This document shows positions 26,141-31,564 of a stretch of 64,000 bases of DNA, in pieces. The stretch's first letter is position 1. Each line of letters begins with the position of its first letter. Source of the stretch: Bacillota bacterium (GTDB taxonomy: Bacteria > Bacillota > DTU030 > DUMP01); the NCBI GenBank assembly GCA_012837285.1, contig DURJ01000117.1, forward strand, positions 1-64,000, given 5' to 3'. The notes beneath the pieces are model-generated. The model saw nothing but the letters and a program-made list of their open reading frames with translations, had not been told where the DNA came from and did not search any database. A program made the position numbers and the translations under genes.

Positions 26141-27454
26141 ATGAAACTAAGGTCTTTCTTAGGTGGGGTTCACCCGGCGCCGGCCAAAGGTAGGACAGGG
26201 AATAGTCCGATCGCGACGGCACCGTTGCCACCAAAGGTGGTAATCCCCTTAGCCCAAGGCGGTGCTCCTTGCGAGCCGCTGGTAAAAGTGGGCGATACAG
26301 TGCTGGCAGGACAGAAGATCGGTGACAGCCAAGCCTTTGTTTCTGCTCCGGTGCATGCTAGCATATCAGGTAAAGTTACGGCTCTTGAATCGGTGGCCTG
26401 CCCCACGGGCCGTAGCAGTTTGGCTGTAGTAATTGAGAGTGACAGCCAAGATTCATGGATAAATACCGGTGGCCGATCGTTGGCTGATCTGTCGGCAGCC
26501 GATGTTAAGGATTTGATCCGGGAAGCCGGATTGGTGGGTATGGGAGGAGCCATGTTTCCTACCCATGTTAAAGTTTCGCCGCCGCCGGGCAAGAGTTTTG
26601 AGGCGGTTATTATTAATGGGGCTGAATGCGAACCCTATCTCACTTGCGACCAGAGACTGATGATGGAAGAACCGGAACAGATTATTCTTGGCCTTAAAGC
26701 TTGGTTGAAGGTAACCGGAGCCCAGAAGGGCTATATTGGGATTGAAGACAACAAACAAGAAGCCATTGCTGTCTTGAGGGCGGCTGTGGCCGAAGAGGGT
26801 AACATCGAGGTGGTACCGCTGACCACCAAGTACCCCCAAGGCTCGGAGAAACAATTGATTTTTGCTGTCTTAGGACGGGAGATTCCCTCCGGCGGTTTGC
26901 CAGTGGACGCAGGGGCCTTAGTACAAAACGTCGGCACAACTTATGCTTTGGCCCAAGCGATTGTTTACGGGAAGCCCTTGGTGGAACGGGTAGTAACCGT
27001 AACCGGTACACCGCTGAAGGAATCCTATAACCTTAAAGTAAGAATCGGCACCTTGTTCAGCGAACTCCTATCGTACTGCGGGGTGGAAGCTAAGGTAGGA
27101 AAGCTGATCAGTGGCGGCCCCATGATGGGCATAGCTCAGTCCAGCGCTGAAGTGCCGGTGCTAAAGGGAACATCGGGTATTTTGGTGTTATCGCCTGAGG
27201 AAGCCGGAGCCTTGCCGGAACGAGCCTGCATTCGCTGTGGGCGCTGCGTAGATGCTTGCCCTATAGGACTGCTACCGACCTTATTAGATCAGTACTGTCG
27301 TAATGACATGTGGCACCAGGCGGAGGAGGGGCATGTGGCTGACTGTATTGAGTGTGGTTGCTGTGCCTATGTGTGTCCGTCGAAACGGCACTTGGTGGCA
27401 GCACTTCGGTTAGGGAAAGCGGAAGTACTGGCGCGTCGGCGTCGGAGGAAGTAG
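26141..27454 (+). CDS. rnfC: Rnf complex subunit RnfC
   Basis: A 437-residue peripheral subunit: an N-terminal sandwich-hybrid domain with the PLAQGGAPCEPLVKVGD region, a flavin/NAD-binding NuoF-like region (GLVGMGGAMFPTHVK, about residues 131-145; NGAECEPYLTCDQ), an SLBB-like region and two [4Fe-4S] motifs (CIRCGRCVDACP and CIECGCCAYVCP, about 365-415). It exchanges electrons with NAD(H) on the cytoplasmic side of the ion-pumping ferredoxin:NAD oxidoreductase. AGGGGTGAGG lies upstream of the ATG. Length is normal for the family. Confidence 0.95.
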   Translation: MKLRSFLGGVHPAPAKGRTGNSPIATAPLPPKVVIPLAQGGAPCEPLVKVGDTVLAGQKIGDSQAFVSAPVHASISGKVTALESVACPTGRSSLAVVIESDSQDSWINTGGRSLADLSAADVKDLIREAGLVGMGGAMFPTHVKVSPPPGKSFEAVIINGAECEPYLTCDQRLMMEEPEQIILGLKAWLKVTGAQKGYIGIEDNKQEAIAVLRAAVAEEGNIEVVPLTTKYPQGSEKQLIFAVLGREIPSGGLPVDAGALVQNVGTTYALAQAIVYGKPLVERVVTVTGTPLKESYNLKVRIGTLFSELLSYCGVEAKVGKLISGGPMMGIAQSSAEVPVLKGTSGILVLSPEEAGALPERACIRCGRCVDACPIGLLPTLLDQYCRNDMWHQAEEGHVADCIECGCCAYVCPSKRHLVAALRLGKAEVLARRRRRK

Positions 27455-27466
27455 GGGGAGTTGGAA

Positions 27467-28444
27467 ATGGCTAACCAAAACATCCTTCCCGGGGAAGGAG
27501 AGCTGCTGGTGTCTTCTTCGCCCCATATTAGGGCCGAGGAGACGGTGGATTGGCTTATGTGGCAGGTGGTAGTGGCTTTGCTTCCAGCTGCGGTGGTCAG
27601 CGTTTACTTTTTTGGTTTCCGTTCACTGTACCTTATGGTGCTGGGTGTAGCTAGCGCCATGGTTACCGAGGCAGTGATGCAGAAAGCCTTGGGAAGAGGT
27701 TTGACAATAAAGGATGGCAGTGCTGCTGTTACCGGTTTGCTTCTGGCCTTTAACGTGCCGGCTAATGCTCCGTGGTGGCTGGTGGTAATAGGGGCGGTTT
27801 TTGCTATTGCTGTGGTTAAGCAGACTTTCGGTGGGCTCGGCTACAATTTTATCAATCCGGCCCTCACGGCTCGCGCTTTTCTTCTGGCAGCCTGGCCCCA
27901 GTATCTGGCCGGTAATTTTCCTTTGCCGCTGGACACTGTAACGGGCGCAACACCGTTAGCCATTATTGAGGGTACAGCCGCTGGCAGCTTACCGTCGTAC
28001 TTGGATCTTTTCTTAGGCAATGTGGGTGGCGTCCTGGGCGAGACATCAGCTCTGGCCTTACTGGTAGGGGGGCTATATCTTGTTTGGCAGAAAGTAATCG
28101 ACTGGCGCACTCCGGCAACGTTTATCGGCACGGTGGCAGTTCTTACTTGGATCTTTGGCGGTCGTGGCGGCCTCTTTGCGGGGGATCCGCTCTATCATGT
28201 CTTAGCCGGCGGACTTATGCTCGGTGCTTTCTTCATGGCTACTGATTATGTCACGTCACCTGTTACTCCCCAAGGTCGGTTAGTTTTCGGTGTAGGTTGC
28301 GGTATTATCACCGTACTAATTCGCCTCTGGGGCGGCTATCCGGAAGGGGTTTCTTATTCCATTTTGCTCATGAATTTGGTGGTGCCGTTTATCGAACGGT
28401 GGACTGCGCCCCGAGTCTACGGCATACAAACCAGTCGGGTATGA
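27467..28444 (+). CDS. rnfD: Rnf complex subunit RnfD
   Basis: A 325-residue membrane protein with about ten helices. The covalent FMN site motif is present as VTGATPL (about residues 155-161), where the Thr would be flavinylated by ApbE. GGLGYNFINPALTARAFLLA is the conserved NqrB/RnfD helix block. Start set at ATG 27467, six bases after GGGGGAG. It forms part of the ion-translocating membrane core with RnfA and RnfE. RnfE begins only 19 bases after its stop, leaving no room for the usual rnfG. Confidence 0.95.
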   Translation: MANQNILPGEGELLVSSSPHIRAEETVDWLMWQVVVALLPAAVVSVYFFGFRSLYLMVLGVASAMVTEAVMQKALGRGLTIKDGSAAVTGLLLAFNVPANAPWWLVVIGAVFAIAVVKQTFGGLGYNFINPALTARAFLLAAWPQYLAGNFPLPLDTVTGATPLAIIEGTAAGSLPSYLDLFLGNVGGVLGETSALALLVGGLYLVWQKVIDWRTPATFIGTVAVLTWIFGGRGGLFAGDPLYHVLAGGLMLGAFFMATDYVTSPVTPQGRLVFGVGCGIITVLIRLWGGYPEGVSYSILLMNLVVPFIERWTAPRVYGIQTSRV

Positions 28445-28462
28445 ACCGGGAGGTGGGGAACA

Positions 28463-29065
28463 ATGAAAAAGTTATGGGGTACCTTTTCTAATGGTATTAT
28501 TAACGAAAACCCAACACTCCGTCTAGTTATCGGTATGTGTGCACCGCTGGCGGTGACCACAGCCGTAGCCAATGGATTCTGGATGGGGATTGCCGTGATT
28601 TTTGTGCTTACAGCGTCCAATATATTGATTTCATCTCTACGTAAAATCATTCCGGAGCAAATTCGTATTCCTATTTTTGTAGTCATCATTGCTACTTTTA
28701 CTACGGTAGCAGACCTTAGTTTAAAAGCCGTACAGCCAGACATCCATGCTAAGCTGGGCGTGTTTGTTCCGCTGATTGTTGTTAACTGTATTATCTTTGC
28801 CCGGGCAGAAGCTTTTGCCAGTAAGAATAACGTTTTACTTTCCACTGTGGATGGGCTCGGTATGGGCCTGGGGTTTACCTTGGCTCTAATAGTATTGGCC
28901 ACCATTAGAGAGCTTCTGGGCAACGGTAGTTGGTGGGGAATTAAGCTACTCCCGGCTGCGTTTGAGCCTGCTATTGTGATGATTCTTCCCCCGGGTGCCT
29001 TTGTTACCTTAGGCTATCTACTGGGTGGGTTAAACCTTCTTACCGGTAAGACCGGCGAGAACTAA
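28463..29065 (+). CDS. rnfE: Rnf complex subunit RnfE
   Basis: A 200-residue protein with six predicted helices and RnfE/NqrD hallmarks: GIINENPTLRLVIGMCAPLAV at the N-terminus, VPLIVVNCIIFARAEAFAS (about residues 97-115; contains the conserved Cys near the membrane [2Fe-2S] site shared with RnfA) and DGLGMGLGFTLAL. GGGAGGTGGGG precedes the ATG. It pairs with RnfA to form the core through which electrons cross the membrane. Confidence 0.95.
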   Translation: MKKLWGTFSNGIINENPTLRLVIGMCAPLAVTTAVANGFWMGIAVIFVLTASNILISSLRKIIPEQIRIPIFVVIIATFTTVADLSLKAVQPDIHAKLGVFVPLIVVNCIIFARAEAFASKNNVLLSTVDGLGMGLGFTLALIVLATIRELLGNGSWWGIKLLPAAFEPAIVMILPPGAFVTLGYLLGGLNLLTGKTGEN

Positions 29066-29079
29066 GGAGGGAGACGAAC

Positions 29080-29667
29080 GTGCATTACCTGGCCATTATC
29101 ATTGGTGGCGTACTGATAAACAACTACATCTTTAGCCGGTTCTTGGGCCTCTGTCCTTTTTGGGGTGTGTCGAAACAGGTGGAGACGGCTACAGGCATGA
29201 GCCTCGCCGTTATCTTCGTCATGGCCATGGCATCAGCGGTCACATGGTTAGTGAATAAGTATCTCCTTATTCAGTTTGAACTTCAGTATATGCAAACAAT
29301 TGTTTTTATCTTAGTCATTGCTGCACTGGTTCAGTTTGTGGAAATGATCATTCAAAAAACGAGCCCAATTCTGTATCAAGCGCTAGGTATTTATCTACCG
29401 CTTATTACTACCAATTGCGCTGTATTGGGGGTAGCTCTCTTAAATATTTCTGAGAACTATAATTTTCTCGAGAGCGTTATCAATGGCACGGCCAGTGCCA
29501 TTGGTTGGTCGCTGGCGATCATTCTTTTTGCCGGTCTTCGTGAACGCTGGGCGTTTGCCCCGATTCCTCCCAGCATGAAAGGTTTTCCTATCGCTTTGGT
29601 GGCTACCGGTCTTATGTCTATTGCTTTCTTTGGTTTCCAAGGGTTGTTCCGGGGCATTCTGTTCTAA
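29080..29667 (+). CDS. rnfA: Rnf complex subunit RnfA
   Basis: A 195-residue six-helix protein homologous to NqrE: NNYIFSRFLGLCPFWGVSK (about residues 9-27) with the conserved Cys, and LPLITTNCAVLGVALLN (about 107-123) with the second Cys. Together with RnfE it holds the intramembrane [2Fe-2S] cluster. GTG start, preceded by AAGGAGGGAG. The gene is separated from its neighbours by only about 14 bases on each side. Confidence 0.95.
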   Translation: MHYLAIIIGGVLINNYIFSRFLGLCPFWGVSKQVETATGMSLAVIFVMAMASAVTWLVNKYLLIQFELQYMQTIVFILVIAALVQFVEMIIQKTSPILYQALGIYLPLITTNCAVLGVALLNISENYNFLESVINGTASAIGWSLAIILFAGLRERWAFAPIPPSMKGFPIALVATGLMSIAFFGFQGLFRGILF

Positions 29668-29681
29668 AGGGGTGACAAGTA

Positions 29682-30497
29682 ATGGTAGAAGCTACTCTTA
29701 TCTTAGGCGGTCTGGGGCTGCTGTTCGGCATATTTTTAGGTGTGGCGGCCCGTAAATTTGCCATAGACAAAGATCCCAAGATGGAAGAAATTTTGGCGGC
29801 GCTCCCTGGGGCTAACTGCGGTGCCTGCGGCTTCCCCGGCTGCAGTGGTTTAGCAGCGGCGATAGCCAAGGGTGAGGCGGCACCCAATGCCTGCAAAGCC
29901 GGCGGAGCGTCGGTAGCAGAACTAGTGGCACAGATCATGGGTGTGGATGCATCGAACAATGATCGCCAGGTGGTCCGGCTTATTTGTCGCGGCGGCCGCG
30001 AACAGGCTCGGCAGCGGGCCGAATATGTAGGACTAAATGACTGCCGGAGTGCCAAGGCCTTTGGCTTCGCTGGCAAGGCTTGCACCTTTGGTTGCTTGGG
30101 ATTGGGCAACTGTGCCCGCGCTTGTCCGTTTAGCGCCATTACCATGGGTCCGGACGGACTGCCGGTAATCGACCCTTATGTATGCACCGGCTGTGGTGTG
30201 TGTGTCCAGACTTGTCCGCAGTCAGTGTTAGCGTTGGTGCCGGCACGAAACAGGGTGTTTGTGGCCTGCAGTTCTACGGCACCTGGGCGCCAAGTACGCC
30301 CGGTGTGTCAAGTAGGGTGTATCGCCTGTCGTATTTGTGAAAAGACCTGCGAGCACGATGCCATTAAGGTGGAAAACAACTTGGCCCGGATTGACTACAG
30401 CAAATGCACCAACTGCGGCCGCTGTGCCGACAAATGTCCACAGAAGATTATTATTAATGAAACTTTAAGCGAACAGTCAGCCCAGGCGGTAGTATAA
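29682..30497 (+). CDS. rnfB: Rnf complex subunit RnfB
   Basis: A 271-residue subunit with one N-terminal membrane helix, a four-cysteine [4Fe-4S] domain (ANCGACGFPGC, about residues 44-54) and several ferredoxin-type clusters (CFLGLGNCARACP-like region reading CLGLGNCARACP; CTGCGVCVQTCP; CRICEKTCEHDA; CTNCGRCADKCP). It takes electrons from reduced ferredoxin at the cytoplasmic face. Length is shorter than in acetogens with extra clusters but normal for the core family. The ATG follows AAGGGGTGAC. Confidence 0.95.
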   Translation: MVEATLILGGLGLLFGIFLGVAARKFAIDKDPKMEEILAALPGANCGACGFPGCSGLAAAIAKGEAAPNACKAGGASVAELVAQIMGVDASNNDRQVVRLICRGGREQARQRAEYVGLNDCRSAKAFGFAGKACTFGCLGLGNCARACPFSAITMGPDGLPVIDPYVCTGCGVCVQTCPQSVLALVPARNRVFVACSSTAPGRQVRPVCQVGCIACRICEKTCEHDAIKVENNLARIDYSKCTNCGRCADKCPQKIIINETLSEQSAQAVV

Positions 30498-30535
30498 TCA
30501 CTACTAAGCTTCGGCTGGACGAAAGGTGAACTCTA

Positions 30536-31564
30536 GTGCAGACGAAATGGACCAAGATGGCGGTATTAGTTTTAGTGGTGGCGGGCCTGCTCTTAAGTGG
30601 CTGCCGGGGGGTCCGTACCGAAGTGCGTAAGACAGAATTCATGATGGATACAGCCGTTACCATTACCGCCTACGGCCCGCGGGCCGAGCAGGCGGTGGCA
30701 GCGGCTTTTGCTGAAATGAGGCGGGTTGCCGCTCTAATGAATGCTGATGACCCTGACAGCGAAGTATCCTTGATCAACAGAAATGCTGGCCTAGAGCCGG
30801 TCAGGGTAAGTTCGGAAACGTTTGAACTACTTGAGTTGTGCCAGCACTACAGTGAACTAGCAGCCGGGGCTTTTGATGTTACTGTACGTCCCCTGGTGGA
30901 GCTTTGGGGCATCGGTAAGAAAGACAAATATGTGCCTAGCCCGGAAGAGATTGAGCGAGCGCTTCAACTGGTAGATTATCGGAAAGTTATTTTGGATCAG
31001 AACACAAAAACAGTGTTTTTACCAGTGCCAGGCATGGGTGTTGATTTAGGTGGAGCCGCCAAGGGCTATGCCGCCGATCGAGCTCGGGAAATACTCAAGG
31101 AACACGGGGTTCGATCAGCTTTAATCGATGCCGGCGGCAATATTTGGACGGTGGGTATACGGCCTGACGGTAGGAAGTGGCGGATCGGTATCCGCCATCC
31201 ACGGCCAGAAGTAGCCGGTGGAGTTTTGGCTGTACTTCCCAGCCAGGATCTAACCCTGGTGACTTCCGGCGATTACGAACGTTATTTTCTTAAATACGGC
31301 ACACGCTATCATCATATTTTTGATCCCCATACAGGGTTACCGGCTCGGGAATTGGTCTCGGCCACAATTATCGGCAATAACAGTGCCGAGGCCGACATTT
31401 TGTCCACGGCTGTATTCGTCTTGGGTGCAGACAGAGGGTTGGCTCTTACTAACCAATTACCGCATATCACCACCGTGGTAGTAACACCCAAGCTTCAGGT
31501 TCTTACGGCCGGAAGCCATGAGACTGAGCTGGAACTCGTGTACAAAGAAGGGGAAGACCAGTGA
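30536..31564 (+). CDS. apbE: ApbE FAD:protein FMN transferase
   Basis: A 342-residue lipoprotein (lipobox LLSGC, about residues 20-24) of the ApbE family: MMDTAVTITAYG, VDLGGAAKGYAADRA, LIDAGGNIWTVG and HHIFDPHTGLPA are family motifs with the Mg/FAD ligands. It attaches FMN through a phosphoester to Thr in RnfG and RnfD on the outer side of the membrane. Here RnfD is the only visible target in the operon. GTG start after AAAGGTGAA. It overlaps the following gene by four bases. Confidence 0.93.
   Translation: MQTKWTKMAVLVLVVAGLLLSGCRGVRTEVRKTEFMMDTAVTITAYGPRAEQAVAAAFAEMRRVAALMNADDPDSEVSLINRNAGLEPVRVSSETFELLELCQHYSELAAGAFDVTVRPLVELWGIGKKDKYVPSPEEIERALQLVDYRKVILDQNTKTVFLPVPGMGVDLGGAAKGYAADRAREILKEHGVRSALIDAGGNIWTVGIRPDGRKWRIGIRHPRPEVAGGVLAVLPSQDLTLVTSGDYERYFLKYGTRYHHIFDPHTGLPARELVSATIIGNNSAEADILSTAVFVLGADRGLALTNQLPHITTVVVTPKLQVLTAGSHETELELVYKEGEDQ

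Follow-up and report, generated by a model that had tools for sequence, protein, structure and literature searches.

A multi-domain RnfG encoded apart from the rnf operon in a Bacillota genome

The rnf operon in the window (the whole stretch of 64,000 nucleotides analysed here) lacks rnfG, and an intact copy of that gene is present on a different contig of the same genome. The RnfG carrier is thus not absent; its gene has been relocated and now stands in a cluster of housekeeping genes. On the sequence evidence set out below, we consider it highly probable that the genome encodes an ordinary, complete six-subunit Rnf pump whose multi-flavin RnfG comes from a separately located and separately transcribed gene. 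Operon-based annotation would label such Rnf complexes incomplete, and finding their rnfG requires a genome-wide search.

The rnf operon and the rnfG of the same genome

Six genes in the order rnfC-D-E-A-B-apbE occupy positions 26141-31564 on the plus strand of the window, all with family-model matches, and genes for a NusG_II (PF07009) and a Hpre_diP_synt_I (PF07456) protein lie 3' of apbE. The window genome (G000) is a draft of 2.17 Mb in 204 contigs, 95% complete with 2% contamination. A PF04205 search of this genome placed FMN_bind domains on two contigs, C44 and C113, and gave no match on the window contig, C117. The features are as follows.

26141-27454, plus strand: rnfC, 437 aa; TIGR01945, 540 bits (cut-off 246)
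27461-28444, plus strand: rnfD, 327 aa, flavinylation motif DTVTGAT; TIGR01946, 348 bits (cut-off 207)
28445-28462, plus strand: rnfD-rnfE junction, the usual place of rnfG; 18 bases, ACCGGGAGGTGGGGAACA, with a ribosome-binding site only
28463-29065, plus strand: rnfE, 200 aa; TIGR01948, 229 bits (cut-off 213)
29080-29667, plus strand: rnfA, 195 aa; TIGR01943, 275 bits (cut-off 229)
29682-30497, plus strand: rnfB, 271 aa, ferredoxin-type clusters; TIGR01944, 114 bits (cut-off 69), with FeS and Fer4 domains
30536-31564, plus strand: apbE, FAD:protein FMN transferase; PF02424, 311 bits
31561-31947, plus strand: NusG_II-domain protein, not an FMN carrier; PF07009, 102 bits; overlaps apbE by 4 bases
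C44:3954-4769, plus strand: rnfG, 271 aa, intact; TIGR01947, 131.8 bits (cut-off 102)

What the initial annotation had read from the window itself is borne out: the gene order by the family-model matches, the 18 bases between rnfD and rnfE by the junction sequence, in which there is no rnfG remnant, and the retention of the RnfD flavinylation motif and of ApbE by the matches listed above. Its statement that the window holds no rnfG-like frame agrees with the PF04205 search and with a motif scan of the window in all six frames, which returned only two isolated [DENQ]xx[ST]GA[TS]x[ST] strings and no RnfG-like frame. RnfA, B, C, D and E all score above the cut-off of their own family model, as does RnfG from the same genome, and on this basis the complex belongs to the RnfABCDGE type; the position of rnfG between rnfD and rnfE, which is not seen here, is a usual trait that membership does not require. 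Among public genomes, in a scan that returned no member of the class of the window genome, rnfG and rnfD lie in one cluster at 78 of 80 named RnfG loci, so the missing rnfG in the window is unusual and not a matter of chance.

In its core the C44 protein combines the membrane helix of RnfG with the ETPGLGA loop and, at AISGATISS, the flavinylation site (T151); after the core comes a second FMN_bind domain, with the motif DNVSGATFSS (T252). With two PF04205 domains, each carrying a GAT motif (ISGAT and DNVSGAT), the protein qualifies as a multi-flavinylated RnfG, the sites being predicted ones. Among solved structures, residues 3-162 match RnfG of C. tetanomorphum best (7zc6, 7.7e-21), with the GAT motif aligned, and residues 189-270 match one of the domains of CbFMN4, a multi-flavin protein (8p2b, 2.4e-11). 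The core motif VQAISGAT has Q where D or E is usual, a substitution also found in some in-operon RnfG proteins. The gene lies in the order tmk, a cyclic-di-AMP-receptor-like gene, holB, ricT, rnfG, yabA and rsmI, the neighbours being named by sequence recognition and by comparison with the known Firmicutes cluster rather than by a family scan.

The absence of rnfG that the initial annotation implied is therefore refuted by the intact gene on C44. Three readings had been offered there, and only that of an rnfG elsewhere in the genome stands; nothing supports a complex running without a carrier, and the candidate for another extracytoplasmic carrier, discussed below, fails the RnfG models. The suggestion that the NusG_II protein could be an assembly factor found no support: NusG_II, Hpre_diP_synt_I and apbE often accompany rnf operons in which rnfG is present (L075, L081, L095 and L118 among them), and we also discarded NusG_II as a stand-in for RnfG, because it is a common neighbour of apbE even where rnfG is present.

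Conservation and recurrence of the detached rnfG

The sample from the class of the window genome comprised 13 genomes, eight from the window's family and five from a second family (f2). Every one of the 13 has rnfG beside ricT; the rnf core is present in 11, with no rnfG in the rnfD-rnfE junction wherever that junction could be read. In G003, assembled as one contig of 2.88 Mb, rnfG lies at 438 kb and rnfD at 2,600 kb, and since the two are thus 2.16 Mb apart on a single contig, the detached layout reflects neither gene loss nor assembly error. The class forms one group, with the two families within it, in the RnfG-core tree and in the tree of RnfC, D and E combined. In three f2 genomes (G008, G009, G012) apbE and the rnf operon are on different contigs, and apbE is seemingly detached too.

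Two class genomes, G010 (97% complete) and G011 (79%), keep rnfG next to ricT, but their assemblies yielded neither rnfA nor rnfD; G010 also retains an apbE. Either contigs are missing or RnfG is used without Rnf in these organisms. Missing contigs are the simplest reason, because the rnf operon of the sister genome G009 is split across contig ends.

The gap between ricT and rnfG contains a SigA-like motif, TTGGCA-18-TAGAAT (positions 3881-3910 of L005, the C44 rnfG locus). A match to the promoter consensus is by itself weak evidence. The motif is, however, found at the same place in seven of the eight genomes of the window's family, exact in five and with one-base variants in two (TACAAT in one, CTGGCA in the other), the eighth (G005) being degenerate, and it is kept while the intergenic sequence around it diverges across the family. 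Because of this conservation across species, separate transcription of rnfG is likely. A SigA-like promoter before rnfG was also looked for in f2, with no match.

Detached rnfG genes occur at other loci in at least four further families, and relocation is therefore either recurrent or ancient. The rnf operon of family f20, covered here by eight genomes, is without rnfG; the detached gene, whose product usually has two or three domains, lies directly upstream of what reads as an operon for an Mrp/Mnh Na+/H+ antiporter (L164-L169, L198, L199), the gap being a single base in G185 and G229, and this arrangement points to a possible connection of RnfG with sodium/proton exchange. In family f31 (G080, G041) the detached rnfG is near genes that read as pyrF and pyrE. 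G223 has a three-domain rnfG on a contig other than that of its rnf operon, which lacks rnfG (L188), and in G199 rnfG lies approximately 8-9 kb from rnfD on the opposite strand. On the RnfC, D and E tree, f20, f31 and the class each form a solid clade. The genomes with detached rnfG do not form one clade there, and AU tests of a single origin, which counted G223 as in-operon though its operon is without rnfG, gave p values of 0.25 and 0.23; tree and tests neither establish a single origin nor reject one. Two other arrangements were noted in passing. At G050:C6:150030-151520 and G212:C4:79048-80655, the RnfD match and the RnfG match lie in frames of equal length (542 and 556 aa, respectively), as if fused, and on contig164 of Clostridium tarantellae (L129) the genes rnfG-E-A-B are present, whereas neither rnfC nor rnfD could be recognised, at the threshold used, in the 4.8 kb upstream.

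These observations could also be read differently, namely that the detached RnfG serves mainly a separate extracellular electron-transfer route and acts only partly in Rnf, relocation being a way to tune RnfG relative to the Rnf core. The promoter motif of rnfG, the multiple flavin domains of its product, the two class genomes with rnfG in which no rnfA or rnfD was found and the f20 genes abutting an antiporter-like operon are all consistent with such a route. We nevertheless consider it unlikely: conservation of the RnfG core domain is high, its score is that of an RnfG, no other RnfG is available to the Rnf core, and both genomes without an rnf core are fragmented drafts.

Flavin domains, ApbE and other FMN_bind proteins

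The number of FMN_bind domains in RnfG varies within the class: two in the window genome, G002 and G004, two in G009 and G010, where the second has AGAT, and three in G003, G005, G006, G007, G011 and G012. RnfG of the congener G001 has the core domain only, and the second FMN domain is thus not essential. Conversely, multi-domain RnfG does not require detachment, because G017, G021 and G022 encode one within the operon. In a tree of individual domains, the core (first) domains of detached and in-operon RnfG together separate from all accessory domains with a support of 99, the row labelled G030_d1 being actually a second domain, as the first domain of that protein is without the acidic residue required by the pattern used for cutting. 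The accessory domains therefore represent a distinct flavin-domain lineage that was joined to RnfG, not fresh copies of the core.

A genome-wide search found one apbE in the window genome, that of the rnf operon, which makes its product the only candidate for flavinylating RnfD and both RnfG sites. Elsewhere in the class the number of apbE copies ranges from none found (G011) to three.

The second contig with FMN_bind domains encodes a lipoprotein-like protein with two such domains (C113:25-753), and the class has other FMN_bind proteins as well. The presence of such proteins speaks for a complex that works without RnfG or with another extracytoplasmic flavin carrier, of which the C113 lipoprotein would be an example. 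We regard this as very improbable: the C113 protein seems to lack the RnfG membrane helix and linker, has a GAT motif in its second domain only, and fails the RnfG models, its sole match being one of 20 bits against a cut-off of 205, a failure on which we dismissed it as the Rnf carrier; moreover, all members of the class encode a bona fide RnfG. G003 has a similar two-domain FMN_bind gene (G003:C1:715323-717855) adjoining a second apbE, and because of this proximity the C113-type protein probably belongs to a separate flavin system.

Scarcely credible, finally, is an artefact of assembly or binning, in which rnfG was dropped from the operon, as the initial annotation had allowed, or C44 is foreign. 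The draft state of the genome, with its 204 contigs and 2% contamination, speaks for it, but the layout is the same in 12 other assemblies, including the single-contig G003, the rnfD-rnfE junction is intact, with a ribosome-binding site in its 18 bases, and C44 shares its gene order with the two congeners, at 66-83% identity between corresponding genes; for practical purposes the artefact is refuted.

Proposed function and comparison with known systems

We thus return to an ordinary Rnf pump with a separately encoded RnfG. The complex would act as a ferredoxin:NAD oxidoreductase and ion pump with its RnfG supplied from the distant locus, where rnfG would be transcribed on its own. By homology, the RnfG core, with one membrane helix and FMN on T151, is expected to join the complex. 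In solved Rnf structures RnfG is a shuttle between the RnfA/E centre and RnfD (PMC9588780, PMC12174285), and electrons would likewise pass here from the [2Fe-2S] centre of RnfA/E to the RnfG core and on to the FMN of RnfD, the RnfD and RnfG sites presumably being flavinylated by ApbE from the rnf operon. Least certain is the part played by the second FMN domain (T252), which would sit outside on a linker: the extra flavin may be a side-exit for electrons, and a role as either side-exit or buffer for the electrons of RnfG is plausible.

A bolder proposal, which we think quite improbable, is that RnfG in this class is a separately regulated multi-flavin module, working both inside Rnf and, as the class genomes that yielded rnfG without an rnf core would illustrate, apart from it, and that the pump switches between NAD reduction and electron export. 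If this were true, the cell could direct Rnf either to NAD reduction or to acceptors outside. With its detachment, its own promoter motif and its added flavin domains, this RnfG is a natural test case for the diversion of electrons from Rnf by RnfG. Diversion of this kind has been proposed for multi-flavinylated RnfG, and we found no published test of it.

Multi-flavinylated RnfG itself has already been published: Meheust et al. (2021; PMC8238504) described it in RNF gene clusters and suggested a second electron path to extracytosolic acceptors. As far as we could find in the open-access literature, to which the search was confined, detachment of rnfG from the operon has no published description. 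The canonical Rnf complexes encoded by rnfCDGEAB (C. tetanomorphum, 7ZC6; A. woodii, 9ERI) share with the present system the six subunits, the TGAT motif of RnfD and, in the core domain of RnfG, the membrane helix and the SGAT site for flavinylation, whereas here rnfG stands outside the operon with its own promoter motif and encodes a second FMN_bind domain. The RnfG proteins of Meheust et al. likewise have more than one FMN_bind domain, but their genes are in RNF clusters, while the rnfG described here is detached and lies inside a replication and housekeeping cluster. Lastly, the second domain of the C44 protein resembles domain 1 of CbFMN4, which was described together with SaFMN3 (PMC10339131; 8P2A, 8P2B); unlike the C44 protein, in which such a domain is joined to an RnfG core, those two proteins are not described as RnfG-core fusions.
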